Virus record (IMG/VR): IMGVR_UViG_3300000956_000005 | Span: 1-46,654 of that record | Direction: 5' to 3' (one strand) | From: a virus | Length of the DNA: 46,654 nt | In this document: positions 1 to 46,654 of the stretch, one piece after another | How positions within the stretch are numbered: position 1 is the first letter of the stretch | Layout: each line of letters begins with the position of its first letter | Notes under the pieces: generated by a model | Told to the model about the DNA's origin: nothing | Seen by the model: only the letters and a program-made list of their open reading frames with translations | The model's database searches: none | Made by a program: the position numbers and the translations under genes

Positions 1-50
1 CGCAGGCTCCTGTCCACCAGTGGCAGTCCCGTGACCTGACGGTGCGCTCC
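1..50. repeat. Terminal direct repeat, left copy (assembly overlap)
   Basis: These 50 bases are identical to 46605-46654. The capsid reading frame passes through both copies in the same phase. The repeat most likely reflects a circular assembly graph cut inside a gene, that is, a circularly permuted or terminally redundant genome. It is probably not a biological 50-bp terminal repeat, since it lies within coding sequence. Confidence 0.9.
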
Positions 51-815
51 GACAACGCGCAGCCTGAAGGCGGAACATTCACCTGGACCGGGGCCAACCG
101 GCTTCCTGTCCGGCGCTTCAACATCCTCCAGATCCAGTCGAAGGAGGGTCAGGTTTCCGGGACGCAGATGGCGGATCGCCACTACGGCATCTCGAACCTC
201 GAGTCCGATCAGGTCGACATCCTGACTACGGAGTTGAAGACCGACAACGAGCACGTCCTGCTCCGCGGCACGGCGGCCTCTGGCGACGCCACCGCGACTT
301 CTCGGCGCATGAACGGGTTGATCCCGATCATCCAGACGGCGCTCTCGGCGTACACCAACGCATCCGGCCTGACCATCACCGAGGGCATGTTCAACGCCTT
401 CGCGCAGCAGTTGTGGCTGCTCGGTTCCAGGCCGCGCGACATCCTCACTGGTGGCGTCGGCAAGCGCACCGTCAGCTCCTTCCGCGGCGGCGGCAACTTC
501 ATCCTGCCGGCCGATTCGATGAAGCAGGTGAACGTCGTGGACACCTACACGACGGACTTCGGGACGGTGATGCTCCACCTGTCGCGCGACATCCTGACGG
601 GCACCTCGCCGTCTGCGCCGACCAACGGCATGAGCTTCCTGTGGGTCGACAAGGAGGCGTGCAAGAAGAGTTGGCTCCGTACCCCGGTGGCTGAGAAGTC
701 GCCGAAGGTGGGAGATGCGGCCTACTACGTTGTGCTGCACGAGAACACGCTCGAGTACGGTCACCCGCACTCGAACGGGTTCATGCACAACTACAAGTCG
801 ATCTTCAGCTCGTAA
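3..815 (+). CDS. Major capsid protein, C-terminal part (continues from 46469)
   Basis: This frame is open from the window edge and continues the ORF that starts at 46469; the joined protein is 316 residues (62 + 254). It resembles the SU10-type (DUF5309) capsid family, HK97-like coat proteins of certain podoviruses. That assignment is my recognition from overall sequence character, not a search. The position fits a capsid gene: portal, small genes, scaffold-like gene, then this gene. The protein ends at 815, and a small gene follows 5 bases later. The GTG at 42 is an internal Val codon, not a start. Function is fairly sure from gene order, and the family name less so. Confidence 0.85.
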   Translation, partial: QAPVHQWQSRDLTVRSDNAQPEGGTFTWTGANRLPVRRFNILQIQSKEGQVSGTQMADRHYGISNLESDQVDILTTELKTDNEHVLLRGTAASGDATATSRRMNGLIPIIQTALSAYTNASGLTITEGMFNAFAQQLWLLGSRPRDILTGGVGKRTVSSFRGGGNFILPADSMKQVNVVDTYTTDFGTVMLHLSRDILTGTSPSAPTNGMSFLWVDKEACKKSWLRTPVAEKSPKVGDAAYYVVLHENTLEYGHPHSNGFMHNYKSIFSS

Positions 816-820
816 GCCAC

Positions 821-1156
821 ATGAGCGCCGCCATCATCGCTGGCAAGTCGTACTCGCTCGGCAAGGCGAAGCTCGAAGGCTCGATCCTGGCCTGCATCAA
901 GGATTGGGCCGAGACTCACCTGGACGAGATGGTGCGACACAAGGCGCAGGTGGCGGCGCTGAGAGAACAGCAGCAGCCGAGGTCTGGGGATGGGGCAGTG
1001 TTGCTCCATTCCCAGATCCCGGTCACCTTGGACGTGATGCTTCGACAGCGGATCGACCGCAGATGGATGGATGACGATTGGGTTCACAAGAAGGTCATCA
1101 GCCTCTATCGAATCGGAATGGTCAATCCGGGCCTCCCGCTGCGCCGAGGCTGGTAG
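821..1156 (+). CDS. Hypothetical protein between capsid and glycosyltransferase
   Basis: A 111-residue protein starting at ATG 821, five bases after the capsid stop and without a clear Shine-Dalgarno, so probably translationally coupled. The N-terminal half is predicted helical with charged residues (around 30-50), followed by a Gln/Arg-rich patch. No motif is recognised. Its 3' end overlaps the long glycosyltransferase frame by up to 79 bases, depending on which start that gene uses. Its position directly after the capsid gene would suit a small head protein, but nothing in the sequence proves this. Confidence 0.6.
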   Translation: MSAAIIAGKSYSLGKAKLEGSILACIKDWAETHLDEMVRHKAQVAALREQQQPRSGDGAVLLHSQIPVTLDVMLRQRIDRRWMDDDWVHKKVISLYRIGMVNPGLPLRRGW

Positions 1157-3567
1157 CGCCACCGATCAAGTTCTCGCTCGCCATGATCGTCCGCAACTGC
1201 GCGGCCGAGCTTGACCGATGCTTGCGCTCCTTCGCCGCCTACCCTGACGAACTCGTGATCGTCAACACCGGGATCTCTCCGGACGAGGAGGGGTTCGCGG
1301 ACACCAACATGGTGGCCGAGCGGTACGGCGCCAAGGTCTTCCACTTCCCCTGGATCGAAGACTTCGCAGCCGCCCGCAACTTCAGCTTCGCCCAGTGCTC
1401 GAACGACTACGTCATGTGGCTCGATACAGACGACACGGTGGAGAACCCCAAGGGATTCGCCATCGCGACGAGGAACACGCTCGCCACGGGCACACTCGAA
1501 AGCATCCACGTCGAGTACCTCTACGATTTCGACGAGAGTGGCCGTTGCACGACCAGGCTTCAGCGCGAGCGCGTGGTGGACCGGCGCTTCTACGAGTGGG
1601 TGGAGCCGATCCACGAGATCCTCCACGAGAAGCACGCTGTTCGACGTGGGCTCATGCCGCCGGAGGTGGGTCGTGTCATCCACCACCGGGTCCGAGACGA
1701 CGCCGGTCAGCGAAAGAGCCTCGAACGCAACATCCGCGTTTTCGAGGAGAACTTTGTCAAGCGCGGTCGGTACTGCGGCGAGCGGATGCTGTTCTACTGG
1801 GGCAATACCCTGATGGGGCTGCATCGCCACGAGGAGGCGATCGAGAAGTACAAGCAGTACGTCCCACTCTCTGGAAACCCGGCAGAGATCCAGATGGCGC
1901 TGTGCTCGGCGTCGGAGTGCTGCCGGGCGATGAAGCGGTTCAAGGAGGCCAAGGCCTACGCCTATCAGGCCATCGAGATCAACCCGGAGACGCCAAGCGC
2001 CTACCTGATCCTGGCGCAGGCCCAGTTCGAGGCAGGGAACAAGAAGCTCGCGCGTCACTTCGCCAAGATGTGCGTCCAGTGTTCGGACAACTTCGACCGC
2101 GAGATGGTCAGTAATCCCAAGGCGATCCACGGGACCGCGGCGATCATGGTGGCCCAGTGCGCCTACGAGGAGAAAGACCTCGACGAGTGCGTCCTCTACA
2201 TGGACCACGGTGCCAAGGTGTACGGGGAGAGCGAGCCTTCCATCGTCGAGATGCGCGGACTGATCGCGAAAGAGAAGGACCGACAGGCGAAGCTCCAGGC
2301 GTTCTTCACCACACGCCAGGCTCTTCGGGAAGAGGGCCGTGACGCCGACATCCAGAAGCTCGCAGAGGCCGCTCCTGAGGCCATCCGCGAGCACGCCGAG
2401 GTGATTCGCCACGTCGCGAAGAAGCGGCCTGCTGGCAAGCCGACGCTGGTGATCGCGGCGCCCGGTGGGATGCCGGGTGGTTGGGGGCCGGAGAACCTGA
2501 AGACCGGGATCGGCGGTAGCGAGGAAGCGATCTGCTACCTCGGTGAGGCTATGGCTCGACGAGGATGGAACGTCGAGGTGTACGCCTCCTGCAAGCGCCA
2601 ATCCTGGAATGGCGTCGAGTGGTATCCGTACTCGGCCTACGTCGGCGAAGGGGACAGCCCGGAAGCCCTGATCGTGTGGCGCTTCCCGGGAGTGCTGACG
2701 GACGCCGGAACTGGAGCCAAGACCAAGTGGTACTGGGCGCACGACATGCCCAATCCCGGCGCGTGGTTCTTGGGTTCATGGAATGCCTTCGACGGGATGT
2801 TCTTCGTCTCGAAGTACCACGCGGATCAGTACGACTTCATCCCGGCCGAGAAGAAGATTGTCTCCGCCAATGGGATGCACCACCAGAGCTTGGCGCCGCT
2901 CGACGATCTCGCCAACGAAAACCACCGGCTGGTCTACGCATCGTGTCCGATGCGCGGCTTGGTGATCCTGCTCCAGTGGTGGGAGTACATCAAGCAGCAG
3001 GCGCCGGAGGCCGAACTCGACATCTACTACGGCTTCCACCCGACGCTGATGTCCATGCTTCAACCTGGGACGGACGGTGCCGCGGCTCGTCGGCAGGTCG
3101 TGACTGTCGTGAATCAGTTGAAGAACCAACCTGGGATCAACTGGAAAGGATTCGTAGGTCAGGAGGAGCTGCACAAGGGGTTCGCCAAGGCCGGCATCTG
3201 GGCCTACCCGTGCATCTTCCCGGAGGTGTCATGCATCACGGCCATGAAGATGCAGGCGCACGGTGTCGTCCCGGTGACTACGAGCAATTTCGCCCTGGCA
3301 GAGACGGTCCACCGAGGGGTCAAGATCGACGGGAACATGGGCGAGATCGAGGTCGAGAAGTTGTGGGCAGACGCCGTCATCGCCCAGATCAAGAACCCGT
3401 GGACGAAAGAGCAGCGGCTCGAGATGGCCCGTGATGCCCGCGCCTCGTTCAACTGGGAAGCCGTGGCCGACCAGTGGGACTCTCTGATTCGTGCTCGCCT
3501 CTCCGTTGGCTCCGAGCTGAAGCCGGTGCGCCGCGGGGATCTGTCGGCGATGAAGGCGCTGGTCTGA
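1078..3567 (+). CDS. Bifunctional glycosyltransferase: GT2 domain, TPR region, GT4-like domain
   Basis: An 829-residue protein when read from TTG 1078. Residues about 30-200 look like a GT2 (GT-A) domain, with a metal-binding DxD-type motif DTDDT at 116-120. Residues about 230-345 contain helical TPR-like repeats. Residues about 450-800 look like a GT4 (GT-B) domain, with the glycine-rich GIGGSEE loop and an E-x7-E-like segment beginning PEVSCITAMKM. It should transfer sugars from activated donors; substrate unknown. The start is uncertain: ATG 1183 would cut into the first beta strand, and TTG 1078 overlaps the previous gene. A TPR between two transferase domains suggests a protein acceptor. 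Its place directly after the capsid gene suggests virion glycosylation (inference). Confidence 0.85.
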   Translation: MGSQEGHQPLSNRNGQSGPPAAPRLVAPPIKFSLAMIVRNCAAELDRCLRSFAAYPDELVIVNTGISPDEEGFADTNMVAERYGAKVFHFPWIEDFAAARNFSFAQCSNDYVMWLDTDDTVENPKGFAIATRNTLATGTLESIHVEYLYDFDESGRCTTRLQRERVVDRRFYEWVEPIHEILHEKHAVRRGLMPPEVGRVIHHRVRDDAGQRKSLERNIRVFEENFVKRGRYCGERMLFYWGNTLMGLHRHEEAIEKYKQYVPLSGNPAEIQMALCSASECCRAMKRFKEAKAYAYQAIEINPETPSAYLILAQAQFEAGNKKLARHFAKMCVQCSDNFDREMVSNPKAIHGTAAIMVAQCAYEEKDLDECVLYMDHGAKVYGESEPSIVEMRGLIAKEKDRQAKLQAFFTTRQALREEGRDADIQKLAEAAPEAIREHAEVIRHVAKKRPAGKPTLVIAAPGGMPGGWGPENLKTGIGGSEEAICYLGEAMARRGWNVEVYASCKRQSWNGVEWYPYSAYVGEGDSPEALIVWRFPGVLTDAGTGAKTKWYWAHDMPNPGAWFLGSWNAFDGMFFVSKYHADQYDFIPAEKKIVSANGMHHQSLAPLDDLANENHRLVYASCPMRGLVILLQWWEYIKQQAPEAELDIYYGFHPTLMSMLQPGTDGAAARRQVVTVVNQLKNQPGINWKGFVGQEELHKGFAKAGIWAYPCIFPEVSCITAMKMQAHGVVPVTTSNFALAETVHRGVKIDGNMGEIEVEKLWADAVIAQIKNPWTKEQRLEMARDARASFNWEAVADQWDSLIRARLSVGSELKPVRRGDLSAMKALV

Positions 3568-3568
3568 C

Positions 3569-3886
3569 ATGCCGGCGGCAAAGGGGCTAGCCGCAGGTCA
3601 GCTCCCGTCCTCGAAGGGCGCGCTCTACACGGCGTCTAGCTACACCGAGATCACCTTCTTTCCGGTGGTGAACGGAAACACGACGGCCGAGGCCGTGACC
3701 ATCTACGTCAAGCGTGACGGCGGCTCCTCGCGGATGATCTGGACCTCGCCCACTCTCGCGGTTGGTGCCAGTTCCAACGTCGTCGAGGCCGGCTCGGTCC
3801 TTATCCTGAACCCTCTCGACGTGGTCGAAGGCTTCGCCACCACGGCGGCCAAGGTGGACTACGACATCTCCGGGAGGCTCTCGTGA
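3569..3886 (+). CDS. Hypothetical small virion protein, beta-rich
   Basis: A 105-residue protein with ATG one base after the upstream stop. It is rich in Thr, Val, Ser and Gly in alternating patterns typical of a beta sandwich, without Cys. The next gene starts with GTG inside its stop codon (GTGA). Size, composition and position between capsid and adaptor genes fit a capsid decoration or head-completion protein. This is inferred from context only; no family is recognised. Confidence 0.65.
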   Translation: MPAAKGLAAGQLPSSKGALYTASSYTEITFFPVVNGNTTAEAVTIYVKRDGGSSRMIWTSPTLAVGASSNVVEAGSVLILNPLDVVEGFATTAAKVDYDISGRLS

Positions 3887-4857
3887 TCGAGTACCAGACC
3901 CTCTCCCAGATGCGCGCCCAGGTCGGCCGCATGATCCAGGACACGTCGGTAAGCCGCGGTACCAAGATCGACGAGTGGATCAACACCTACTACGCCGACG
4001 CCGCCCGCGACTATCAGTGGCCGCAACTGATCCGTCCTTCCGAGGAACTCCAGGCGTTCACGGCTGGCAACCCGTTCCTCTACCTCCCGAAGGACGTGGA
4101 GACGGTTCTCTTCATCCTGCCGGCCACCTACGCGCGCACGGCCGGGATGAGCGACATCAACCAACTGATCCAGGGGGCGGGCGGGATCTACCGTACTTCC
4201 GGTCAGGTCGTGGCGTGGGCGCACGCTGGCGAGTCCGGGATCATGCGGGACTTCTACTCGACGGCGGCCGAGCAGGTGAAACTGCTCCACGACGGGGCCA
4301 CGTCGATCACGGCGGTCGTCCACGGCACGATCGGCGGGACGGTGGGGGATCCCTCATCGAGCGAGTTCCAGGAAGAGGTGACGGTCCTTCCTACGACCGG
4401 CGGCACCACGGTTCAGAGCTACCGGGACATCGCGAGTGTTTCGTGCGCGGTGCTTCCGGCTGGGGTGAGCCTGACCGCTAGCGGGATCACGTCGCTCTAC
4501 ACCTACGCCAAGATCGTCTCCGGTGAGACGACGGCGCGGTACAAGCGGATCCGGCTCCTATCCCCGTCCTCGACGGGAGAGGGGTACACGGTCTACTACA
4601 AGAAGCGGGTGGCCCATCTGGCCTTCGACAACCAGTCAGTCGAGATCCCGGTGAGCCCGTACATCGTGCGCAAGGTCGTGGCGATGATGTACATGAACCA
4701 GCGCGAGGTGAGCGCAGCAGCGGCCCACAACGGCGAGGCCGAGTTGGCGCTTCAGCGAGCCATCGCAGCTTCCACGGCGGGCGGGGAAGGGATCCAGCAG
4801 GCCGCCCCGATGGGCGACTGGCGTCACACCTTCATCGTGCGTAGGTCAACCTCCTAA
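3883..4857 (+). CDS. Putative head-tail adaptor protein
   Basis: A 324-residue protein starting with GTG 3883 in a GTGA overlap. The N-terminus is helical and resembles phage adaptor/neck proteins: short helices, an INTYYADAARDYQWPQL-type segment near residues 33-50, then a beta-rich middle and a helical C-terminus. Such proteins form the ring joining portal to tail nozzle in short-tailed phages. The position after the capsid gene and before a nozzle-like gene supports this. Family identity is by eye; other connector roles remain possible. Confidence 0.6.
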   Translation: MIEYQTLSQMRAQVGRMIQDTSVSRGTKIDEWINTYYADAARDYQWPQLIRPSEELQAFTAGNPFLYLPKDVETVLFILPATYARTAGMSDINQLIQGAGGIYRTSGQVVAWAHAGESGIMRDFYSTAAEQVKLLHDGATSITAVVHGTIGGTVGDPSSSEFQEEVTVLPTTGGTTVQSYRDIASVSCAVLPAGVSLTASGITSLYTYAKIVSGETTARYKRIRLLSPSSTGEGYTVYYKKRVAHLAFDNQSVEIPVSPYIVRKVVAMMYMNQREVSAAAAHNGEAELALQRAIAASTAGGEGIQQAAPMGDWRHTFIVRRSTS

Positions 4858-4866
4858 GGAGCCTGC

Positions 4867-5457
4867 TTGTACGGTCTAGAGCCCGTCTCCGCTGCCACCG
4901 TTGAGAGCCACGCGCACTCCGATCTGGTGCTGGCACTCGCGCGCTTCTTGAAGCCGGAGCTTTACGTCGAGATCGGAATCGAGCAAGGCGGTACGTTCAA
5001 ACTGCTTCACGAGGAACAGACCAAGAATGGGAGGAAGGCGCTTGGCTGTGACGTGATGCAGCCGGAGAACCCATTCTGGCAGTCAGAGCGGTTGCCCGAT
5101 GCCCAATACGGGATGTTCTCGACGCAGTTCATCTGGCTGCTGAGGGACGCCTCGGTGGGTCTTGCCTTCATCGACGCCAACCACTTGGTCGAAGAGGTAC
5201 GGGCGGATCTGAGGGCCATGTCAGCCAAGATGGCTGTCAACGGGATCCTCCTGCTCCACGACACCTACCCGCCGGACATGGCCTGCGAGCACGGAAACTT
5301 CTGCGGGGACGGCTGGAAGCTGATCCCACAACTGTTGCACGATTCGTGGTTTGTCTCCGAGTTCGAGTTGGTGACCTTGCCAGCGCAGTATGGCCTTACG
5401 ATCATGCGCAAGCACCGTGGTCGCCACCTCGCGTGGAACCCGAAGTCGGAGTTCTAG
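4867..5457 (+). CDS. Class I SAM-dependent methyltransferase
   Basis: A 196-residue protein starting at TTG 4867, preceded by AAGGAG with 5-base spacing. Motif I, YVEIGIEQGGT at 33-43, is the SAM-binding glycine loop. An acidic end of strand 2 (GCDV) follows, and later the segment AFIDANHLVEEV and a strand ending LLLHDTYPP. This layout resembles the Methyltransf_24/cephalosporin-hydroxylase-like group, which often modifies sugars. It sits between adaptor and nozzle genes, an unusual place for an enzyme. With the glycosyltransferases it may methylate a virion glycan (inference). Substrate unknown. Confidence 0.8.
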   Translation: MYGLEPVSAATVESHAHSDLVLALARFLKPELYVEIGIEQGGTFKLLHEEQTKNGRKALGCDVMQPENPFWQSERLPDAQYGMFSTQFIWLLRDASVGLAFIDANHLVEEVRADLRAMSAKMAVNGILLLHDTYPPDMACEHGNFCGDGWKLIPQLLHDSWFVSEFELVTLPAQYGLTIMRKHRGRHLAWNPKSEF

Positions 5458-7128
5458 ATGCCCGATCGCTCCGGTGAAGACTTCCTGGTAGTCAGGAACC
5501 GGAGTGCTTCCGGCGGGGTGAATACGTTCTCATTCCCGCTCGACATCCGCGACGACCAGCTCGTAGACATGACCAACGGGATCGCCACGACGCCAGGCAT
5601 CCGCGAGGTACGACCCGGTTCCAGCATCGTCGCCACCGGCATCACCTTCGGCCCGATCCTCGCCCTTCAGGAGTTCATGTACGGCGGGGTCACGGCCGAG
5701 CTGCTCGCCATTTCTCCGGGCGCCACGTTCCCTAACGCAGGCAACTTGAAGCTCTGGAAGTGGAATGGAACCGGCACCCAGTTCACGCTGGTCGGGACGC
5801 TCACTGGATTCACGACCGCGACCGCTCCAGTGGACATCATCGCCGGGGTGGATCTCAACGCCGGGACGCTCTACAGCCGCTCGGCAGTGGTCCGGATCGC
5901 TTCTCGTGCCCCGGTGGACAATGGCTTCATTTACAGCGGTGACGGCCTCACGATGGTCACCGGGCCTGGGTTCATGCCGACGACCGGGATGTTCCCGATC
6001 GGCAACGTGCTTTCCCGCGGGTTCGGGGGTGGACAACAGGGCAGCCGGGTTGGCGTTGGCTTCTACTCGGACGTGGCCGCCTTCGCTGTCACCGGATGGG
6101 GGGTAATCCAAAACTTCGCTCTCGGCGGTGGCAATCGTCAGCAGATCGTGGTCATCAAGCCGTTTCGCGCCACCACCGTCTTCTTCGGGATGTCCGACCG
6201 ACTCGAGGCGTTGATCCTCGACGGGGATCCGATCGCAGTTGGTGGAGCACTTGGAAATACCCTCTGGCGTCGCGAGGTGATCGACACCCGCATCGGAGTC
6301 TCCTCTCGATTGAGCGTCCAGACGGTGGGCGAGGACCTCTTCTTCTGCGACCAGTACTCGAACATCCGCTCTCTGAACCAGACGATCACGGACAACAACC
6401 AGGGCATCAAGCGCCTACCGGTATCGGCACCTATCCAGTCGTGGATCGACCGAGTGAACCCGGCAGCCGTGGACAAGATCGCGGCAGCGTCCTACGACCG
6501 CTACTACGTCGTGGCCTTCCCGATCGACTTGGCCGATGTGCCAAACTACACCTTTGTCTACGACACGATCAACCAAGCGTGGTACGGGCCGTGGGACGGC
6601 AACTTCGCCACGGTCAATGTGATGGCGGTGGCGACGCTCAACTTCGCCACGCTTGCCACCGACAAGAACCCGACGCTCTACCTCGGCGGGTCTGCTACGG
6701 CGAGAGGAGAAGTGCGCCGCTCCTTCGTCGGGACTACGGATGACGGCAGCCCGATCAACTACCAGGAGACGAGCAAGCGGTACGACTACGGCGGCATCGA
6801 GGCGGCCAAGCAGCCGAGGAGGTTACGCACCTACGTCACCGCGGCTCCGGGTGCCACGATGCTGGTCGAGGGTCGGCAGGACGGCACCGACTGGAAGACG
6901 ATCGGGTACATCGACCTCTCGGGTCAGTCACCACGCTTACCGCTCACGCTTCCGTTCAACCTGCTCGGGACCGGAGGCGTCGTGGAGGACGTGTTCACCC
7001 TAGAAGACATCTTCGAGTTGCCCAAGGACATGCAGTACCGGATGACCTGCACCGCGAGCCAAGCCGTCCAGGTGCTCGGCCACACCGCGCAGGTCCATCT
7101 CAAGAACATCGACTGGACGCCGACATGA
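5458..7128 (+). CDS. Putative tail nozzle / DNA stabilisation protein
   Basis: A 556-residue protein whose ATG directly follows the previous stop. It is almost entirely beta-rich with repeated Gly/Asp turns and segments such as YTFVYDTINQAWYGPWDG near residue 362. This is reminiscent of beta-propeller nozzle proteins (P22 gp10-like) that plug the tail of short-tailed phages. Length fits, as that family is about 450-600 residues. Position after the adaptor also fits. The assignment rests on architecture and gene order, not on a recognised diagnostic motif. It ends in an ATGA overlap with the next gene. Confidence 0.5.
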   Translation: MPDRSGEDFLVVRNRSASGGVNTFSFPLDIRDDQLVDMTNGIATTPGIREVRPGSSIVATGITFGPILALQEFMYGGVTAELLAISPGATFPNAGNLKLWKWNGTGTQFTLVGTLTGFTTATAPVDIIAGVDLNAGTLYSRSAVVRIASRAPVDNGFIYSGDGLTMVTGPGFMPTTGMFPIGNVLSRGFGGGQQGSRVGVGFYSDVAAFAVTGWGVIQNFALGGGNRQQIVVIKPFRATTVFFGMSDRLEALILDGDPIAVGGALGNTLWRREVIDTRIGVSSRLSVQTVGEDLFFCDQYSNIRSLNQTITDNNQGIKRLPVSAPIQSWIDRVNPAAVDKIAAASYDRYYVVAFPIDLADVPNYTFVYDTINQAWYGPWDGNFATVNVMAVATLNFATLATDKNPTLYLGGSATARGEVRRSFVGTTDDGSPINYQETSKRYDYGGIEAAKQPRRLRTYVTAAPGATMLVEGRQDGTDWKTIGYIDLSGQSPRLPLTLPFNLLGTGGVVEDVFTLEDIFELPKDMQYRMTCTASQAVQVLGHTAQVHLKNIDWTPT

Positions 7129-7754
7129 GCACCATCGGCCCCGGCTTCACGTTCTCGAACGGAGTATTCGAGCAGGTCACGAACACCGCTCTCCACCAAC
7201 TCGTGGACAACGCGATCGTGACAGCGATCCCGGCGTCAGAGTTCACGACTGGCTCGAAGGTGGTGCAGATCGCGGCGAGCATCCCGGCGTCGGATCAGGG
7301 GGAAGGCTCTCTCTGGTTCGACACAACCCTAATGATCCTCAGGACGAAGAACTCGACGAGGTGGGACGCGCAGGCCGTGGGGCCTGAGTTGCTCAATGGC
7401 TCAGGGGCCACGATCGGAGCCGGGATCTTGGTGGTCGGCAACGCCACCAGTTCCATGAACCCCTGCCTTACGGCTGCGTGGCCGGAAGTGGTTGGGGCCA
7501 CGGTGGGCGTGGTGAACCCTGGGGCTACCGGGGTTGTCCGCAAGGGCGGGATCGGGCTCTTAGCGCTGATCGGTCCCTGCACGGTAGGGGACACCCTCGT
7601 CGCGGCCGGCTCCTACACGACCTCGGCGGTGGGCAGGGCGCGCTCGGCGAGGGCGGCGGGGACGACCACGGTGACGGCGGGGATCGAGGTGGGAATCTGC
7701 ATGACGCAGATCGCAGCGGTGACGGCGCTCGCCACCTGCTTGGTGTGGAGGTAG
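7125..7754 (+). CDS. Virion-associated protein, paralog 1 of 3
   Basis: A 209-residue protein with an ATGA start overlap. The N-terminus has the pattern F-x-N-G-x-F-x6-L-H-x-L-V-D-x-A (residues about 9-28), which recurs in the next two genes. The rest is Gly/Ala/Thr/Val-rich beta structure. Such 'variable, L-H-x-L-V, A' N-termini are common in proteins attached to phage tails or heads. Function is unknown; tail or capsid decoration is the most reasonable guess. Confidence 0.65.
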   Translation: MSTIGPGFTFSNGVFEQVTNTALHQLVDNAIVTAIPASEFTTGSKVVQIAASIPASDQGEGSLWFDTTLMILRTKNSTRWDAQAVGPELLNGSGATIGAGILVVGNATSSMNPCLTAAWPEVVGATVGVVNPGATGVVRKGGIGLLALIGPCTVGDTLVAAGSYTTSAVGRARSARAAGTTTVTAGIEVGICMTQIAAVTALATCLVWR

Positions 7755-7756
7755 CA

Positions 7757-8419
7757 GTGGCCGACCTACTTCGAGGGATAACCTTCACCGAGCACGAGGC
7801 AATCACGGCGGCGATGCTGCACGCCCTGATCGACACGGCCATCTCAGGAGCAGACGCTTTCCAGGGAGTGTCGGCGTTGGTCAACGTGGACAGCCCGAGC
7901 ATGGCTTCGGGGGTGCGCTTGCTGTCCACAACCACGCCGGCCACTCCTGTTACAGGTGACCTCCTCGTCGGTTCCGATGGCGAGATCGACTACTACTCCG
8001 GCTCGGCGTTCCTTGACCAGGATGTGAGCTACGTTCACCTCGTCAACAACTCCGGGCTCACGCTAGCCACCGGGACTCCGGTGATCCTCGAGCGAGCTGA
8101 TCTCACGGCGGGGCGCTTCACCATCCACGGTCAGGCAGGAAACGCTCCCGATCCGTTCGGGGTGACGTTGACCTCGGTGAATCCGGCGGCGACTTGCGCC
8201 GTGGCTTTCCGTGGCCGGGTGCAAATGCTGATGAACAACCTCTCACTCAACGCGGGAGGAAAGGTCGTCATCTTCGGTGGCGCGGTCTACTCTCAATCGC
8301 AGGCGCAGCACGGATACGTTCCGGCCGGGGCGCAGAGCGAAACGAGCGAGGTGTTCGCCATCGCGCTCCAGCCGGGCAACTTCAGCTACGGGTTGCAGAA
8401 CGTGATGCTGTTCAAGTGA
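7757..8419 (+). CDS. Virion-associated protein, paralog 2 of 3
   Basis: A 220-residue protein from GTG 7757, two bases after the previous stop. The open frame extends further upstream (to 7478), but that part overlaps the previous gene and looks like its shadow. The N-terminus (LLRGITFTEHEAITAAMLHA) matches the repeat motif of its neighbours, with LHALIDTA following. The remainder is beta-rich, and its C-terminal half resembles paralog 3. Probably a structural virion component. Confidence 0.65.
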   Translation: MADLLRGITFTEHEAITAAMLHALIDTAISGADAFQGVSALVNVDSPSMASGVRLLSTTTPATPVTGDLLVGSDGEIDYYSGSAFLDQDVSYVHLVNNSGLTLATGTPVILERADLTAGRFTIHGQAGNAPDPFGVTLTSVNPAATCAVAFRGRVQMLMNNLSLNAGGKVVIFGGAVYSQSQAQHGYVPAGAQSETSEVFAIALQPGNFSYGLQNVMLFK

Positions 8420-10289: not shown

Positions 10290-11744
10290 ATGGGCTACGG
10301 GATTCAACTCGGCGGGTTCGTGGAGGGTGTCGGCAAGGGCCAGGACATCGGCATCAAGCGCCGAGCCGAGAAGCGGCAGAAGGAACAGGACAAGACCCAC
10401 CAGAAGAACGTCGAGACGCAGCAGGGACTTCAGGGCCTGGAAGTTCTCAACTCGTTGTCTCAGCATGAGGCTGCTGCTGACGCTGCTCTCGACGGACTTC
10501 TCGCCAAGCGTTCCCCGCTGGTGCAGGAGGAGATGCAGTCCTCGGCGATGCTGTCCCTTGCCGAGATGAGCAAGGATCCCGGCGCCATTGCCCGTGCCAC
10601 GGCTCGCCACGAGAAGGCGTTCGGTGCTCTGAGCGAACTGGACGCCTTCCTGTCCGGCAAGGCGGCGGAACGCGAGTCCTTCGGCAAGCAGTCAGCGATG
10701 ACGCGGGATTTCCTCACCAAGAACGGCCTGCTCAACGGGCTGCTTGAGGCGCGCGGAGCCTATGAACAACTGAACGCACCGAGCGAATCCCAGCAACAGC
10801 CCGCTCCGTTCACGATGCCCGGGATGCAGCAGGGCGGTGACGCATCTGCCGGAGAGGTCCTCGGGGCTGCAATTGGCAAGGCGGCTGGCGGCATCGGTCA
10901 AGCAATGGGAGGCGAGGAGCCGGCTGGTGCAGGAGAGCAGGCCGACGTTGGCGCTCCAGGCGTGGACGTTGGCGACGACACCGTCTCTCGCGGGATCATG
11001 GGCGAAGAGCAAGCCGCAGCGCAGCAGAACCCGTCCACGCCAACGGATCAGGTGCTCTCTATGTGGGACCAGCAAGCGACTCAGGTTGGCCTGCCCAAGA
11101 TCGGCAGCCCCGAGGCGCGCATCGAGAACGGCACGATCGTCTACACCACGAACGACTCCGACATCGCCAAGAACTGGGAGCAGCGGATCGGCAAGCTCGG
11201 CGAGTTCGTGGGTGGCACGCCGCCGATGGTGGTCAAGGACCGCGGCGCCATCCTCAAGGACGCCGTGAAGGATCTCGCAACTTGGTCTGATCGTGAGGGT
11301 CGACAGCAACACCGCATATCTTCTTTCGAGCGCATGAAGGCCACGCCGGAAAAGATCCAAGACATCAAGGCGATGGCGTTGATGGCTCGCGAGCGTGGGA
11401 ACATCGACGACGCTGAGACGTGGGACCGCATCGCCAACGCTTCCGAGGGTGACCGCGTCAAGATCATCGACGAGGCAATCAAGGCGGCAGAACCGGACCT
11501 CAAGATGTTCAAGAACTTCCGAGAGCGGGCGCAGAAACTCGCCGAGGAGCATTACGACATCATCGGGGCCGGAGCCTTGCTGCCACCTGACAAGGTCGCT
11601 CCAGCGAAACGGGCGGCGGCACCTGGAGCAGACCGTAACGCCTTCTTCACCCAATGGCTGGCCGATCACGGGATGACCAAGTTCGATGCGGCTTCAGCCC
11701 GTGCGGCGCAGGCCGAGTGGGAAAAGATGAGCGGTGGCCGTTAA
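10290..11744 (+). CDS. Hypothetical internal virion protein, Ala/Gln-rich helical
   Basis: A 484-residue protein from ATG 10290 (GAGAGG upstream; GTG 10284 in frame is an alternative). It is mostly predicted helical: a charged coiled-coil-like region at about 20-140, a low-complexity Gly/Ala/Glu/Gln stretch at about 160-250, then a globular helical C-terminal part. No enzymatic motif is seen. It overlaps the giant downstream gene by 11 bases. The pair resembles the internal (ejectosome) protein genes that close the late region of T7-like and other short-tailed phages; this is inference. Confidence 0.6.
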   Translation: MGYGIQLGGFVEGVGKGQDIGIKRRAEKRQKEQDKTHQKNVETQQGLQGLEVLNSLSQHEAAADAALDGLLAKRSPLVQEEMQSSAMLSLAEMSKDPGAIARATARHEKAFGALSELDAFLSGKAAERESFGKQSAMTRDFLTKNGLLNGLLEARGAYEQLNAPSESQQQPAPFTMPGMQQGGDASAGEVLGAAIGKAAGGIGQAMGGEEPAGAGEQADVGAPGVDVGDDTVSRGIMGEEQAAAQQNPSTPTDQVLSMWDQQATQVGLPKIGSPEARIENGTIVYTTNDSDIAKNWEQRIGKLGEFVGGTPPMVVKDRGAILKDAVKDLATWSDREGRQQHRISSFERMKATPEKIQDIKAMALMARERGNIDDAETWDRIANASEGDRVKIIDEAIKAAEPDLKMFKNFRERAQKLAEEHYDIIGAGALLPPDKVAPAKRAAAPGADRNAFFTQWLADHGMTKFDAASARAAQAEWEKMSGGR

Positions 11745-14700
11745 GCAGCAGCAGAGCCCAGAGGAACAGGTAGACGCCCTGCTCGGTGGCGGCCAGGACG
11801 TTGCGGCTCAAGTAGACGCGCTGCTCGCTGGTCCCAAGCCGAGGCAGCTTGCCACGACCGAGAAGGCTGGCGGCGTTTTCACCGACAGTCTGCTGAACCT
11901 GCCGCCCGGTCAGTACGGCGCCGCTGGCAAAGTGGCTTCTACCACCACCAAGGGCCGACACCCGCGCGACCCGAGGCTGTTGAGCGACACGGTGCAGCGG
12001 TCGTTTCCCAACGCACCGCTCGTCGGCAAGAAGCCCACCGTCGCTGACATGGATGCGGTGGCCGAGAGAGATCCTGCCTTTGCTGCCGAGTGGGCGAAGC
12101 TGAAGGAGTTGCAGGCCGGCTCGGTGAAGCTCGCTGAAGGGCAGGACTTCACCAAGAACCGTGCCTCTCTGGAGGCAGAGACTCAAGCGTCACCCTTTGC
12201 TGAGGCTGCAGGCGGTCGCGCTGCCACCACACCTACTTCCGGTTACGGCGCACCGTCCCCCAAGGAACAGAAGGCTGAGTCACAGAAGGCACAGATTAAG
12301 GCGGCCGAGATCCCCGGCATCCACCGGCCTCCGATCTCTGACGACGAACTCGCTCAGGCCGGGTTCTCTCTCCTTCGCGAAGAGATCGGCAAGCAGCAGG
12401 AGACTCTGCCCGGTGCCGGGAAGGCCGTGCTCCGAGGAGCGGCTTCGGGCGTCAAGCTCGGGGCCTCGGCGCTGGTGCCAGGTGGTGGGCTCGGGGTCTT
12501 CGGCAAGGGCGTGGCTCAGGGTGCGGCGCTCTCGGGCACGGAGCAGGCCCTGGGGCTCGCCAGCGGGGCTCAGGAGGAGCTGGAGCCGTTCCGGCTGGTC
12601 ACGGAGGCGCTCACCTTCGGAGTCGCTTCCAAGGCCGGTGAGGCAGCGGCGCTGGCCATCCCCAAGGCAGCCAAGACCGCGGCCACGGTGGGGACGCTTG
12701 GCACCTTCGAGGCGGTGGGTGCGGCTGAGAAGGCCATCAAGGGCGAGCCGCTCGGTGGGTCCGGTCAGTCGCTGCTAGAGCATGGCATCGAAACCGGCGT
12801 GGCTGTCCTCACCGGCGGCGTGCTGGCCGGTGGATCTCACGGCAAGCCGTCCGAGGCCAAGATTCTCGAAGCCCAGCTTCGGAACATGGAAGGCCCGAGC
12901 AACTACGCCTCGACGGTCATCACGGCGGAGTCTCTGCGGCAGACCATCCGCAACCAGTTGGAGAAGATCGGCGTCCAGCAGACATCGCCCAAGGTTGCCG
13001 AGATCAAGGGCCGCATCAACGACGAGATCCTTCCGCTCGAGGTCGAGGTCGCCCGCACCAGCCGTGAGTACAACGAGTACCTCGACCGGCAGGCCGAAGG
13101 GGACGCCCAGAAGCGGGCCATCCTTGCCGACTCTCTGGTGCGGACCATCGAGACGGACGGTCAGATGCCGGTGCCGCGGGTGGTGGCGCCCGAACAGTTC
13201 GCGGAAGGGATGCGGCTGCTTCGGAACTTCGGGCGCTCAGGGCTTCCGCTCGGTGAGCTGCTGACCGACCTGGAGCGGATCCCGGAAGGACGCTACCAGC
13301 ACAAGAGCGAGAGCGCGCCGGATCAGGCGACGGTTCTTACCAAGATGGCAGAGCCTGACCTTCTGAACGAGTTCAAGCGCCGCGTCACCGAAGAGCCGGC
13401 CGGCAACCACTCTGACATCACCAACGAACTAGCCCGCCGGGTGGTGACGGCAGACAACCCCAAGCAGTACGCCGAGGAACTCCAGTCGCTTGCGGCCAAG
13501 AACGCCTTCGGCCCCAAGACACCATACGGCAACACGACGCTCGAGGACGCCGTAAACCAGGCCGTGGAGCGCGCACTGCCAGCGGCGGGTCGTGACACGG
13601 GCAGATTCGGTCGCCCGCCGTTGGAGCCTGAGAAGGCGCCGTCGCTCAACATCACGAAGCGCGAGTTTGATCAGGGATACCTCGACACGCACGGCCCTGA
13701 CGGGAAGATCGTTCCTGGTGTCCCTGGGATGAAGGTGTCGCGGGCCGAGGCCGCGTCTGGCAAGTACGGCGATCTCGTCGGCGGCCTTAGGTACCACCAG
13801 CAGCGCGGCTTCTACTTTCCGCAGGTGACGCCAGAGTCCGAGGCGGTTCCTGGCAGCGGCAACCTTCCGATCCGGCAGGACGCGAAGCCCAAGGGTCCAC
13901 TCTCGGCCAAGAACAAGCTCGCCACGGATCACCTGAAGGGCCGCGAGAAGACCTTCGCGCAGGTGATGGCCGATCCCAACCGTACGCTCGATACCTCTCC
14001 CGGAGCCGTGCTCAAGGTTCTCCAGAACGAGTCAGGCGCCATCAGGGATGGGCTGGTCCTGAAGTACGCCAGAGACGACGGGCTGGTGCTGCGCACCGAG
14101 CAGTTGCCAGATATGGACGTTCGGGCTTCTGCTGCCGCGGACGCGCTTGCTCTCCGGGCCAAGATCAAGGAGATGGAAGCCGCGATCGGGAAGCTGCCGG
14201 CCATGCAGCAGTTGGCGCTACGCCAGGAGATCAACGCCGCCCATCGGCAGGTGGCGGAACTGCGCTCGCTCGCGGAAGGGTCGCTCTACAAGCAGGCGGT
14301 CGGCAAGCAGTGGGGCGAGTACGACGGCCTCTGGATCCACCGCGACATCCTGCGCCAGGCCCGCATGTCGCGCGATGCCCAAGGCCAGTTCGCGACCGCG
14401 ATGCGCGAGCTCGACGGGTTCATCAAGAACAACATCGTCGGCCTCAACCTGAACCAGTGGCTCCCGGATTGGCTCGGTAACGTGATGTCCCACGGCACCA
14501 GCGGCGTCAACATGCTGCCGGACGTTGTCAACGCAACGAAGGTGATGGCCGGCAAAGGCAAGATCTCGGTCTTCGATGACGAGTTCTTCGCTCAGGCCAA
14601 GAGCGCCAACCTCGGCGGCACCACGCTCGACATCGGCTCTCGCGATCTGCGGGACACGAAGACCATCGACAAGATGATCTCCAGCGAGCGTGAGCAGGGC

Positions 14701-26205: not shown

Positions 26206-26283
26206 GTTGGGTTTGGCCGAGCGGTATAGAGGCAACGGCCTGTGAAGCCGTGCAGACGGGTTCGACTCCCGTAACCCAACCCA
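26206..26283 (+). tRNA. tRNA-His (anticodon GTG), CCA encoded
   Basis: Acceptor TTGGGTT/AACCCAA with the His-specific extra pair G(-1)-C73 (G at 26206, C at 26280). D-stem GCC/GGC, anticodon stem ACGGC/GCCGT with loop CTGTGAA (anticodon GTG), T-stem ACGGG/CCCGT with loop TTCGACT. CCA follows at 26281-26283. All arms pair without gaps. Confidence 0.95.
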
Positions 26284-26284
26284 T

Positions 26285-26359
26285 GGTTCCGTCGTCCAGC
26301 GGCAAGGACGCCTGATTGTCGATCAGGAAACGGGAGTTCGACTCTCCTCGGGACCGCCA
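26285..26359 (+). tRNA. tRNA-Asp (anticodon GTC), CCA encoded
   Basis: Acceptor GGTTCCG/CGGGACC (one G-U pair), D-stem GTCC/GGAC, anticodon stem CCTGA/TCAGG with loop TTGTCGA (anticodon GTC). T-stem GGGAG/CTCCT with loop TTCGACT. Discriminator G at 26356 and CCA at 26357-26359. It starts one base after the tRNA-His CCA, so the two are co-transcribed. Confidence 0.95.
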
Positions 26360-26405
26360 TATCGCTAACCTCCTCCTCGTCCAGTGGCTCACGGGGAGGC
26401 TCTCG

Positions 26406-39122: not shown

Positions 39123-40697
39123 TTGAACGAGTCCCCACTCGTACTTGCGATGCTCATCCGGATCACGAAGGCGATCCAGAAGGAGCTTTTCAACGAGGAG
39201 CGGGGACCGAGAACGCCAGAGGAAGTTGACGCCGTTGCTGAAACCTTCCGGAAGGTGATGCAGCGGTTCAAGTTGCTGAAGTACGTCCCGCATCAAAAGC
39301 AACGCTGGTTCCACGAAGCCAAGGCGCCGATCAAGTGCTTCGTGGGTGGCAACCAGTCCGGGAAAACCACGGCCCTCCTGGCCGAGATCCTGTCGTGGTG
39401 CTTGGGCGAGTACCTCTGGAGCGGTGAACCCGTCATCGACCTGCGCGGCAATCGGGTGAAAGCCCCCATCCGCGCTCTGATCGGCGCCGAGGACTTCGTC
39501 AATGCTCACGCCGAGGTGATCCTGCCCAAGCTGAACGAACTCCTGCCACTCGACTACCTGGGCGTCGAGCAGGAGAAGCTCCAGGGTCGCGTCACTCACA
39601 AGTTGCGCTTCCCGAAGGATCTTGGCGGCTCCACAATCAAGATGATGTCCTATGACCAGGAGCAGGACAAATGGGAGGGCTTCACCGCCCACATCTTCGG
39701 CTTCGATGAGCCGCCTCCTGAGTACGCCGTCATCGGATGCAAGCGCGGGGCGATGCGCCATGCTGCCCCGATCTGCATGAGCTTCACACCGCTCAAGGAG
39801 CCGTGGATCTACGATCAGGTCTACTCGAACGAGAAGGCCATCCACATCGACTCGGACAAGGACATCGCGCGCTTGGGCCGGGAAAGCTACGCGATCGTCA
39901 ACGTGAACATCGCGGACACGCCCTATCTGACCGAGGAGGCCAAGGCCCGCTTCGTTGAGAGCCTGGACGAGGAGGAGCGAGAGGCCCGCCAACATGGCCG
40001 TTTCCGCCACCTGATGGGCCGGGTCTACAAGAAGTTCGACCGCAACATTCACGTCCTACCCGGTGACTGGGATCTCTTCCGCAAGGGCAAGCAGGGCGAG
40101 AACTGGCCGTGCGGCCTCGTGGTGGACCCACACGATCGCAAGCCGTGGGCAATGAGCTGGTTCACGGTCACACCCAGGGACGAGATCATCTGGATCGCCG
40201 AGTGGCCGGACTTCGACTTCCACGGCACGAAGCAGTGGCACTGGTCGGTGGACAACTACTTCGACAAGATGAACGAGGTCGAGAAGGATCTCGGGATCCA
40301 GGGGCGCGTGATCTGGAACCTGATGGACCCCAACTTCGGGCGCACCCAGAAGGCCGGTACTGGGGCCACGCTCGAGGACGAGATGAACGACCGTGGCCGC
40401 GCCTTCGACACCCAGATCGACGACAAGGTGGAACTGGGCCACATCGCCGTCCGGGACGCTTTGGCCGATCCGGCGCGTATCTTCTGGACCGAGCGGTGCG
40501 TCAACGGGATCCGGGGGATGGAGCACTACACCTGGAGCGATTACCGGGTGAAGGACGGTCGGATCAAGGAAGCTCCGATGGAGCAGTGGAAGGACTTCCC
40601 CGACCTGTCCCGCTACGCCGTCGTGTACCCTGTCCACTACATGGACCCGATGACCACACCTCAGGTCCGCATCTACCGGAACAATGGACTTGGCTAA
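39123..40697 (+). CDS. terL: Terminase large subunit
   Basis: 524 residues from TTG 39123, just after the upstream stop; ATG 39150 is an alternative, neither with a clear ribosome site. Walker A GGNQSGKTT at 75-83 and Walker B IFGFDE at 191-196 define the packaging ATPase. The C-terminal half holds the nuclease domain, with LVVDPH and WNLMDPNFG segments supplying metal-binding Asp. It cuts and translocates phage DNA into proheads through the portal. Followed by sugar/methyl genes before the portal, an unusual insertion. Confidence 0.9.
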   Translation: MNESPLVLAMLIRITKAIQKELFNEERGPRTPEEVDAVAETFRKVMQRFKLLKYVPHQKQRWFHEAKAPIKCFVGGNQSGKTTALLAEILSWCLGEYLWSGEPVIDLRGNRVKAPIRALIGAEDFVNAHAEVILPKLNELLPLDYLGVEQEKLQGRVTHKLRFPKDLGGSTIKMMSYDQEQDKWEGFTAHIFGFDEPPPEYAVIGCKRGAMRHAAPICMSFTPLKEPWIYDQVYSNEKAIHIDSDKDIARLGRESYAIVNVNIADTPYLTEEAKARFVESLDEEEREARQHGRFRHLMGRVYKKFDRNIHVLPGDWDLFRKGKQGENWPCGLVVDPHDRKPWAMSWFTVTPRDEIIWIAEWPDFDFHGTKQWHWSVDNYFDKMNEVEKDLGIQGRVIWNLMDPNFGRTQKAGTGATLEDEMNDRGRAFDTQIDDKVELGHIAVRDALADPARIFWTERCVNGIRGMEHYTWSDYRVKDGRIKEAPMEQWKDFPDLSRYAVVYPVHYMDPMTTPQVRIYRNNGLG

Positions 40698-41475
40698 CCC
40701 TCCGTTGCAGAGCCTTCGCAGCGTCAGCATCTACCATGGGCCAATGCCAACCCTGTCGGAGTCGTTCAGCCTTGCGGTTGGAAACATCTCTTCAGATGCC
40801 GGGCACACTTCGACCATGCCCCTTGGTTGCTTTGCTTGGACGCCCAACACGTTCCAGGTGATGTTCTGCGCTAACCTGCTCGGCAGGATCTTGAACGTAG
40901 CTAGCGGCGACGATCCGCACGGCCTTGGTGATCTGTTCGGCGACGTGGTCAACATGGACCTGCCGAGGCGCCCGGACTACTACAAGACCGGGAAGAAGAA
41001 GCCGAAGAACTTCATTCCTGGGTCAGTCTTCGAGATCCCGTTTCCAGACCGCGAGTTTGATGGCGTCCTGCTGGGCGAATTCTTGGAGCACGCTACCCAT
41101 GAGGCCGCTGTGCGCGCCATGCGGGAGTGCGCGAGAGTCGTGAAGAGGGATGGAATGGTCGCCTTCTCAATCCCATTCGATGCCGAAGGTGCCGATCACA
41201 TCGTACGGAACCCGGGATGCCCGGATTCCCTGGTCGTGTCCGAAGGGGTGACTGTAGGCCACCAGCATCTCTGGACGCATCACGAGCTTGGCCTTGCCCT
41301 TGCCGAGGCTGGCCTTTGCGCGGTGCAAGGAACCCATCTGTTCTGGGCCATGGGCCACTACGCCTGTTCTGGGGTTGGCGTCGTTTGCGTTCTTCGGGAA
41401 TCAGCCGATGGCGGTATCGGCGAACTGTTCAAGCGGGCTGAGCCGCACCAGCCAGACTCGATGTGGAAGGAGTGA
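40684..41475 (+). CDS. Class I SAM-dependent methyltransferase
   Basis: 263 residues from ATG 40684, overlapping terL by 14 bases (ATG 40744 is in frame). Motif I is ILNVASGDDPHG at 69-80, followed by VVNMDLP as motif II, an EFLEHATHEAAVRAMRECAR helix and RDGMVAFSIPF. This is the Methyltransf_11-type order. Position between terminase and portal with a glycosyltransferase suggests a sugar or virion-protein substrate rather than DNA; no DNA-methylase catalytic motif is seen. Substrate unknown. Confidence 0.75.
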   Translation: MDLANPPLQSLRSVSIYHGPMPTLSESFSLAVGNISSDAGHTSTMPLGCFAWTPNTFQVMFCANLLGRILNVASGDDPHGLGDLFGDVVNMDLPRRPDYYKTGKKKPKNFIPGSVFEIPFPDREFDGVLLGEFLEHATHEAAVRAMRECARVVKRDGMVAFSIPFDAEGADHIVRNPGCPDSLVVSEGVTVGHQHLWTHHELGLALAEAGLCAVQGTHLFWAMGHYACSGVGVVCVLRESADGGIGELFKRAEPHQPDSMWKE

Positions 41476-41477
41476 CA

Positions 41478-41945
41478 TTGGAAGGGTTTCCTGGCGATCA
41501 GCGGATGTTCCACGCCGTAACTGGTCCTGGCGGACGCATCGACGCAATGGTGGCCGAAGAGTTCGATGTTTGGTCCTTCGACGAGGATCGCTGGATCTGT
41601 CTACCCGCCAAGACCGGGGTGGTCCGAGCAAGCGAGGAGCGTCACACCGTCTTCGACGTGGTGATGCAAGACCTACCCGGGCGCTCGGTGGAAGACTTCA
41701 CCAGTCCGTTCGCCTGCACGCAGGGCCAGAAGCTCCTGTGCCCGGACATGAAGTACCGAACCGTTGAGGAGCTTGTCGAGAAGCGGCTTCCGGTGCAGCA
41801 CCCGCGCGGTAACGGACACATCACCAAGATCAAGCTGATCGCCGAGCGGCCGGAGAAGGAATTGGTCTACGCCTTCGCGGTGCCAAAGTGGATGAACGTG
41901 ATCCATGGGGCCGTGGTCTTCTCGACCGCCGGGGTGCCGGCGTGA
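41478..41945 (+). CDS. Hypothetical protein between methyltransferase and glycosyltransferase
   Basis: 155 residues from TTG 41478 (GGAAGGAG five bases upstream; GTG 41463 is in frame). N-terminal half beta-like with repeated Asp/Trp/Phe (EEFDVWSFDEDRWICLP), then a basic helix-strand region (KYRTVEELVEKRLPVQHPRG, HITKIKLIAERPEKELVYAF). Not recognised. It ends in a GTGA overlap with the glycosyltransferase, so a role in the same pathway is possible. Confidence 0.6.
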   Translation: MEGFPGDQRMFHAVTGPGGRIDAMVAEEFDVWSFDEDRWICLPAKTGVVRASEERHTVFDVVMQDLPGRSVEDFTSPFACTQGQKLLCPDMKYRTVEELVEKRLPVQHPRGNGHITKIKLIAERPEKELVYAFAVPKWMNVIHGAVVFSTAGVPA

Positions 41946-42589
41946 AGTTCACCCTCATTACCCCGATCGTGGATGTCCCGCTTGGTTCCGGTCGCCCGCA
42001 CTTCTTCCTCAAGGACTGCATCGAGTCGGTGGTGGGCCAGATCCACCAGGACTGGGAGTGGCTGATCGGGAGCGACGGGCCGCTGCCTCGGGCTAAGGCG
42101 CTGATCGACGGCTTCAAGGATGACCGGATCCGGTTCGTAGAGTTCGAGCGGAAAGGGCTCTGGGGCAACCCGCAGAGGAACGTGTTGATCGAGCAGGCCA
42201 AGGGGGAACTGATCGGGTTCCTCGACCACGACGACTGCCTGTTCGCCAACAGCCTCTCGCGGGCGGACGAGTACGCCCGTCTCTACCCCCACCGGCCGCT
42301 CTTCTTCTCGATCGAGATGCCCCACCACTACACCATGGAACCACGGATGCAGTTCGGCTCTCTCGCCGGGTCCATGCTGATCTGCCCCAAGGAACTGATC
42401 GGGCGGTTCACCCCCGAGGATGGCTACTCCGCGGACTACGAGTGCATCCAGCAGACGCTCGCCAACGCCAAGTACGCCGGGGTGGAGCCGATCTTCAGCA
42501 AGGCCATCATCAACCGGAGCCGCCCGTGGTGGCTCAAGGCCGTGACCGCCGAGGGCTACAAAGAGGTCACCATCTGCCACTGGACTTAG
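41942..42589 (+). CDS. GT2-family glycosyltransferase
   Basis: 215 residues from GTG 41942 (GTGA). Starts KFTLITPIVDV, the first GT-A strand. CIESVVGQIHQDWEWLIGSD at 26-45 is the conserved nucleotide-binding region, and LDHDD at 94-98 is the metal-binding DxD motif. Short for the family, but the core is complete, followed by a C-terminal acceptor part. No membrane segment. Placed immediately before the portal promoter. Likely takes part in glycosylation of a virion component. Confidence 0.8.
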   Translation: MKFTLITPIVDVPLGSGRPHFFLKDCIESVVGQIHQDWEWLIGSDGPLPRAKALIDGFKDDRIRFVEFERKGLWGNPQRNVLIEQAKGELIGFLDHDDCLFANSLSRADEYARLYPHRPLFFSIEMPHHYTMEPRMQFGSLAGSMLICPKELIGRFTPEDGYSADYECIQQTLANAKYAGVEPIFSKAIINRSRPWWLKAVTAEGYKEVTICHWT

Positions 42590-46468: not shown

Positions 46469-46654
46469 ATGCCAGCACCCGCCGGCGGCGCAGGTACGCA
46501 TTACTTCGACACTTCGAGTCTCGTGCTCGATGTGACCGACTTCATCTTCGAGCTCACCCCGGTCGATACCCCGTTCTTCGATCTCATCGGAAATGGGCCG
46601 ACCGCGCAGGCTCCTGTCCACCAGTGGCAGTCCCGTGACCTGACGGTGCGCTCC
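46469..46654 (+). CDS. Major capsid protein, N-terminal part (continues at base 3)
   Basis: First 62 codons from ATG 46469, preceded by AAAGGAA at 7 bases. Begins MPAPAGGAGTHYFDTSSLVL and continues in phase with 3-815 across the contig junction, giving 316 residues. Start chosen by ribosome site and scaffold spacing (3 bases). The hydrophobic/acidic N-arm without a long scaffold-like delta domain fits the separate scaffold gene upstream. Confidence 0.85.
   Translation, partial: MPAPAGGAGTHYFDTSSLVLDVTDFIFELTPVDTPFFDLIGNGPTAQAPVHQWQSRDLTVRS
46605..46654. repeat. Terminal direct repeat, right copy (assembly overlap)
   Basis: Identical to 1-50. Joining the ends over this overlap restores one uninterrupted capsid gene. 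Confidence 0.9.

Follow-up and report, generated by a model that had tools for sequence, protein, structure and literature searches.

The glycosyltransferases SunS, ThuS, GmaR, OGT and SPINDLY all act on proteins or peptides. SunS and ThuS (PDB 7msp, 7msn, 7msk), which glycosylate glycocins, carry a GT2 domain followed by TPR-like helices and act on peptides. GmaR, the flagellin O-GlcNAc transferase and antirepressor of Listeria, is a soluble protein with a GT2 plus a TPR part, and its acceptor is a self-assembling structural protein (PMC9638930). The TPR part of FlmG is required and sufficient for flagellin binding (PMC7591256), and those who solved the structure of GmaR suggest that its TPR serves this purpose too (PMC9638930). 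In FlmG and in the GT41 enzymes OGT and SPINDLY the TPR arm precedes a GT-B catalytic domain, and the acceptors are cytoplasmic proteins. Among phages, mycobacteriophages have capsid and tail tube proteins that are modified by their glycosyltransferases together with an O-methyltransferase (PMC11600133, PMC11256854 and PMC12619734); virion glycosylation of the Che8 and Corndog type is credited to Freeman et al. 2023 (as cited in PMC11256854 and PMC11600133). To date, the demonstrated cases of particle glycosylation are a few mycobacteriophages, and the trait is considered unusual.

Here, we analysed a GT2-TPR-GT4 fusion encoded beside the capsid gene of an uncultured phage. The window is the whole of record IMGVR_UViG_3300000956_000005 (46,654 nt). 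Its ends share 50 identical bases (1-50 and 46605-46654), so the genome is circular and complete at 46,604 bp, with the assembly cut inside the capsid gene. The head genes run in the order terminase (39123), methyltransferase, GT2, portal (42608), capsid, gene X, fusion, small ORF, adaptor and methyltransferase, followed by the next head-tail gene starting at 5458 (Table 1). Elsewhere in the window, two ORFs (11734-15936 on the plus strand, 1400 aa, and 35788-38727 on the minus strand, 979 aa) had no Pfam or PHROG match, and adjacent tRNA-His and tRNA-Asp genes (26207-26359) neighbour an ORF that weakly matches Chondroitinase B (26316-27590, E 5.5e-6).

Table 1. Features of the head-gene region. 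Positions refer to the window, except in the last line, where they refer to the loci named.
Feature	Position (nt)	Strand	Evidence or remark
Major capsid protein, N-terminal part	46469..46654	+	continues across the circular junction
Major capsid protein, C-terminal part	3..815	+	PF17236 SU10_MCP, E 9.4e-45
Gene X, 111 aa, small helical protein	821..1156	+	between capsid gene and fusion
GT2-TPR-GT4 fusion ORF, 829 codons	1078..3567	+	TTG 1078 is the annotated start; ORF call, Pfam, AlphaFold model
GT2 (GT-A) domain, residues about 31-205	1168..1692	+	Pfam PF00535, model
GT2 DxDD motif, residues 116-119	1423-1434	+	D116, D118, D119
TPR helical arm, residues about 208-445	1699..2412	+	TPR models; model helices 208-443
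GT4 (GT-B) domain, residues about 452-810	2431..3507	+	PF00534, model
GT4 GGSEE motif, residues 479-483	2512-2526	+	G480, E482
GT4 E716-C719	3223-3234	+	K724 at the second EX7E position
ORF between fusion and adaptor, 105 aa	3569..3886	+	no Pfam match
Head-tail adaptor	3883..4857	+	PF24175 SU10_adaptor, E 2.1e-8; conserved in relatives' loci
Methyltransferase (Methyltransf_24)	4867..5457	+	Pfam E 8.2e-10; adjoins adaptor gene
Methyltransferase (Methyltransf_11)	40684..41475	+	Pfam E 6e-11; between terminase and portal genes
Stand-alone GT2	41888..42589	+	Pfam E 1.5e-10; between terminase and portal genes
Intein-carrying fusion ORFs of relatives	L036:10031-13306; L077:9995-13240; L084:7929-11288

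Architecture and active sites of the fusion protein

A first-pass annotation had described two different glycosyltransferase folds joined by TPR-like repeats within the 829-codon ORF, and this architecture is borne out by Pfam and by an AlphaFold model. Pfam models matched in the order Glycos_transf_2 (PF00535, residues 33-122, E 3.8e-11), several TPR models (residues about 238-327, best E 1.2e-5) and Glycos_transf_1 (PF00534, residues 631-788, E 4.9e-5, slightly below the curated cut-off). PF13692 also stayed under its curated cut-off in the window fusion (E 0.0039), and the GT4 profile passes the cut-off in relatives, for example L028 (E 6.7e-17). The two halves match two different phage glycosyltransferase families in PHROG. 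The model, built on a 63-sequence alignment (mean pLDDT 91.5, pTM 0.77), together with Pfam gives a GT-A fold, TPR-like helices directly after the GT2 and a GT-B fold. In the structure comparison, SunS gave the best full superposition of the GT2-TPR half (3.0 Å over 303 columns, TMt 0.71), SPINDLY and OGT were the enzymes ranked with the half made up of TPR and GT-B, and profile matches were obtained with GmaR (6e-36), SunS (9e-28) and ThuS (1e-23).

The ORF annotated at 1078-3567 exists; its start is doubtful, and residues 1-29 are probably not part of the protein, because this stretch overlaps gene X with a GC3 (1078-1164) of 0.45 in the fusion frame versus 0.77 in the gene X frame, because the model shows no structure for these 29 codons (residues 1-17 with pLDDT <50), and because in most relatives the protein begins at the position matching residue 30. 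Translation probably begins at a non-ATG codon around 1150-1165 or at the ATG at 1183.

Residue conservation was counted in 63 sequences, with relatives 24-37% identical to the window fusion. D116, D118 and D119 of the GT2 and G480, E482, R626, E716 and C719 of the GT4 are invariant (63/63). The GT4 does not have the standard EX7E motif: its first Glu (E716) is invariant and the second position is Lys in 57 of 63 sequences (K724) and Glu in four. The nucleotide-sugar sites, which the initial reading had left to structure prediction, are intact in the model. Because the residues are invariant across all 63 sequences, both heads look catalytic, the GT4 site being unusual but conserved.

Three relatives (L036, L077 and L084) carry inteins of 283, 305 and 342 residues, respectively (Intein_splicing Pfam E 4e-16, 4e-19 and 3e-12), at an identical insertion point in the GT4 active site, between E-x-S/N and C-I-T, just before the invariant Cys. 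An HNH endonuclease domain was found in one, a LAGLIDADG domain in another and no recognised endonuclease domain in the third. Clean splicing would restore the GT4 motif. To our knowledge, an intein inside a glycosyltransferase is unusual. Since inteins tend to occupy conserved active sites of important proteins, their position supports a functional GT4 head and suggests that, for some of these phages at least, the enzyme is of importance.

Position beside the capsid gene and spread among phages

A scan of IMG/VR with a seven-sequence profile yielded 252 relatives of the fusion, 80 of which were retrieved. Their neighbours were found with profiles for the capsid, portal, terminase, adaptor and next head-tail gene, and position relative to the capsid gene was not used for selecting loci. 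An SU10-type capsid gene lies upstream of the fusion in 78 loci, window included, confirming in relatives the neighbourhood that had been noticed in the window. The median capsid-fusion gap is 500 bp, and it stays below 1 kb in 67 of the 78. In the window itself, the gap of 260 bases annotated between the capsid stop and the fusion ORF is not empty, as gene X fills it. The capsid gene appears as two ORFs 0.2-0.8 kb apart in six loci (L004, L026, L045, L057, L080 and L081), possibly interrupted by an intron or insert; a group I intron matched in Rfam in L081 only (7848-8076), just upstream of the first capsid piece.

A capsid-first scan, whose query was built from loci found via the glycosyltransferase and which consequently samples the near clade, gave 13 loci, 11 of them with the fusion. 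Eight of these contigs had already come up in the glycosyltransferase scan; among the five new ones, three have the fusion and the other two end 0.3 and 3.1 kb past the capsid gene. Profile searches of the checked regions of more distant SU10-type phages (HTVC106P, EBPR podovirus 2, Pseudomonas phage tf and four Manatee Spring genomes) found no fusion, and small genes follow their capsid gene. Among 58 GenBank phage records with a related capsid, tblastn placed the fusion in MW202524, MW202718, MW202743 and MW202497 only. Because it was not found in the checked regions of the distant SU10-type phages and occurs in four of 58 GenBank capsid relatives, the fusion marks one large branch of uncultured phages, of which the analysis found no cultured member.

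The GenBank carriers are Manatee Spring phages (MW202524, equal to MW202718 and MW202743, and MW202497), whose fusion lies within or next to SU10-type head genes, is 25-30% identical to that of the window and is annotated only as beta4glucosyltransferase or glycosyl transferase family 2. In MW202497 (L010, 3472-7791) the fusion consists of two ORFs located between terminase and portal instead of downstream of the capsid gene, with a cpn60/TCP-1 chaperonin-like gene (5640-7208) interrupting the GT4 half. A group I intron as the cause of this split was rejected, as none matched in L010 and the insert is the cpn60 chaperonin gene.

We also considered a common bacterial gene. A scan of 84,980 genomes with short patterns, which can miss relatives, found GT2-to-GT4 fusions in two MAG contigs only (L085 and L101, the latter with mixed-strand, chromosomal-looking neighbours), and this reading was rejected. 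Most of the other matches were cyanobacterial sequences with the GT4 half, or Granulicella sequences combining TPR and GT4.

Pairwise distances between glycosyltransferases correlate with those between capsid proteins (rho 0.73, Mantel p 0.001, 72 loci). The corresponding values were 0.27 for GT-portal, 0.43 for capsid-portal and 0.78 for GT-adaptor, and the partial GT-capsid correlation given the portal was 0.69. Resolved by domain, the correlation with the capsid was 0.37 for GT2, 0.60 for TPR and 0.74 for GT4, so that the TPR arm is not singled out as the best-correlated domain. As the glycosyltransferase distances track those of the capsid, the fusion is a long-standing resident of the head module and not transient cargo; gene linkage alone could yield such a correlation without functional coupling.

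Accessory enzymes and candidate acceptors

In relatives, the adaptor gene forms the downstream border of an island of enzymes, which we defined as the capsid-adaptor interval and analysed in the 30 loci with both borders, counting ORFs of at least 150 aa. Between 0 and 11 further ORFs were present per interval. GT2 matches were found in 23 of 113 island ORFs versus at most one of 137 other ORFs of the same loci (Fisher p 4e-8); further matches among the 113 were GDP_Man_Dehyd (4), DegT aminotransferase (3), LicD (3), GT4 (3), GT29 (2) and several methyltransferases. No multi-pass membrane protein (two hydrophobic segments, simple Kyte-Doolittle) and no flippase-like or polymerase-like membrane protein was found among these ORFs. 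An island of this composition is to be expected for stepwise glycosylation in the cytoplasm, not for a lipid-linked surface polysaccharide pathway.

The island is small in the window, where an extra GT2 and one methyltransferase lie 4-6 kb upstream of the fusion and do not adjoin it. The two methyltransferases and the stand-alone GT2 named in the first-pass annotation are real genes by Pfam (Table 1); the methyltransferase at 4867 may possibly methylate the glycan and the GT2 may possibly extend the chain. In five relatives (L017, L028, L060, L069 and L070) a methyltransferase domain is fused to the C-terminus of the enzyme, and the fusions of L014 and L065 contain a second GT2 stretch; because they are fused to the same enzyme, these activities can be tied to one pathway. 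The gene at 40684 encodes a methyltransferase akin to the domains fused in L017 and L070 and to a pair of stand-alone methyltransferases that precede the portal gene in L011, the closest relative. The terminase-portal position that the window fills with its methyltransferase and GT2 is occupied in L001 (2166-3125), L003 (1678-2589), L006 (2677-3642) and other relatives by an additional GT4, which is shorter and belongs to the same family.

The enzyme might instead modify a host surface structure or protein, for example excluding later phages, with the head-operon position reflecting late expression only. This is the role of many phage glycosyltransferases (PMC12619734), and the LicD, GT29 and nucleotide-sugar enzymes of the island are also known from surface polysaccharide loci. 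We nevertheless consider a host target unlikely, because it explains the enzymes but neither their placement at a fixed capsid address nor the missing membrane partners, and the TPR arm and the kinship to protein glycosyltransferases point elsewhere. Late expression would, moreover, aid phage exclusion little. Far less probable still is glycosylation of modified bases of the phage DNA: hypermodification by some phage glycosyltransferases is on record (cited in PMC12619734), but in the window ORFs scanned Pfam found no hydroxymethylase or base-modification enzyme, and this role was rejected. The TPR arm and the likeness to SunS and GmaR indicate a protein acceptor. TPR arms are also found in enzymes with other acceptors.

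For a virion protein as the target of glycosylation, the capsid protein is the simplest choice of acceptor. A Ser/Thr-rich capsid tail as the glycosylation site was rejected, since the tail shows no enrichment compared with GT-less relatives or with the whole-protein average. This leaves some room, in our estimate a clearly smaller share, for a glycosylated virion whose acceptor is the gene X product, a decoration protein, a tail fibre or a protein of the adaptor region. In most loci the fusion comes together with gene X (72 ORFs between capsid and fusion in 78 loci; the window and 71 others), which sequence searches did not find in seven GT-less relatives and which stays a candidate partner or acceptor; in L001, L002 and L006 small beta-rich ORFs follow the capsid gene. 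On the other hand, gene X may be a fast-evolving head gene common to GT-less phages, although its match to their post-capsid gene (hhalign E 0.0017, probability 15%) is only suggestive of homology, and it is the capsid protein whose distances the glycosyltransferase tracks. Gene X has no PHROG or Pfam match and was modelled with pLDDT 79.9; its identity with a known head or decoration protein was rejected (best fold match E 0.35).

Proposed role and comparison with known systems

Taken together, we favour glycosylation of a virion protein because this one reading accounts for the placement of the gene, its co-inheritance, the solubility of the enzymes, the TPR arm and the island, and we judge it fairly probable that a two-headed, soluble protein glycosyltransferase modifies such a protein in the cytoplasm and gives the particle a lineage-specific coat. 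The fusion would be active in the cytoplasm of the infected cell during late gene expression, where its TPR arm would bind a freshly synthesised virion protein; the simplest candidate is the capsid protein, whose gene lies two positions upstream. Like SunS and GmaR, the GT2 head would place the first sugar on a side chain, after which a second sugar would be added, or a second site modified, by the GT4 head. The further GT2s, the methyltransferases and the nucleotide-sugar enzymes of relatives would then extend and cap the glycan, so that particles would bear a sugar coat specific to their lineage. The sequences show the domain anatomy, the conserved catalytic residues, the synteny and co-inheritance with the capsid, the island and the methyltransferase fusions, from which we infer acceptor, sugars, linkage, order of steps and benefit. 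The assembly and capping of an O-glycan on the virion, suggested in the first-pass annotation, is partly supported, by motifs, kinship, synteny, the island and the five methyltransferase fusions.

More broadly, chances seem to us evenly balanced that a large uncultured SU10-type lineage has a dedicated protein glycosylation system in its head operon, composed of a conserved two-headed TPR enzyme recognising a head protein and an exchangeable island. If so, a widespread lineage of phages would have conserved the glycosylation of its particles, with a gene that serves as marker, a constant place in the genome and an island for natural diversification. It would become testable which virion protein is modified, whether the coat changes adsorption or protects particles and whether the TPR arm selects the modified protein.

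Each ingredient is known from other systems; the combination and its lineage-wide conservation appear unrecorded, as no paper on the fusion, its capsid address or the inteins was found in the open-access literature searched, which is weak evidence of absence. Compared with the fusion, SunS and ThuS lack a GT4 domain, have small secreted peptides as substrates and are about 16% identical to it; GmaR is cellular, not viral, and has a C-terminal antirepressor domain where the fusion has its GT4. Unlike in OGT and SPINDLY, the GT-B part matches GT4-type Pfam models, no GT41 model is among the Pfam matches of the window protein, and whole-length TM-scores are low (0.28-0.34), suggesting an enzyme that works like GT41 without being a member. 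The analogy with mycobacteriophages, drawn in the first-pass annotation, holds for function and not for homology: the enzymes are phage-coded and, in the window and its relatives, linked to virion genes by synteny, and no Mycobacterium phage was among the 14 of 50,697 phage records that the fusion matched by tblastn. The mycobacteriophage system is described as separate tandem enzymes near the 3' end of an F1 genome, whereas here one fusion is linked to the capsid gene. The exchangeable island would give each lineage its own coat, in a way comparable to the flagellin glycosylation islands that diversify flagella.
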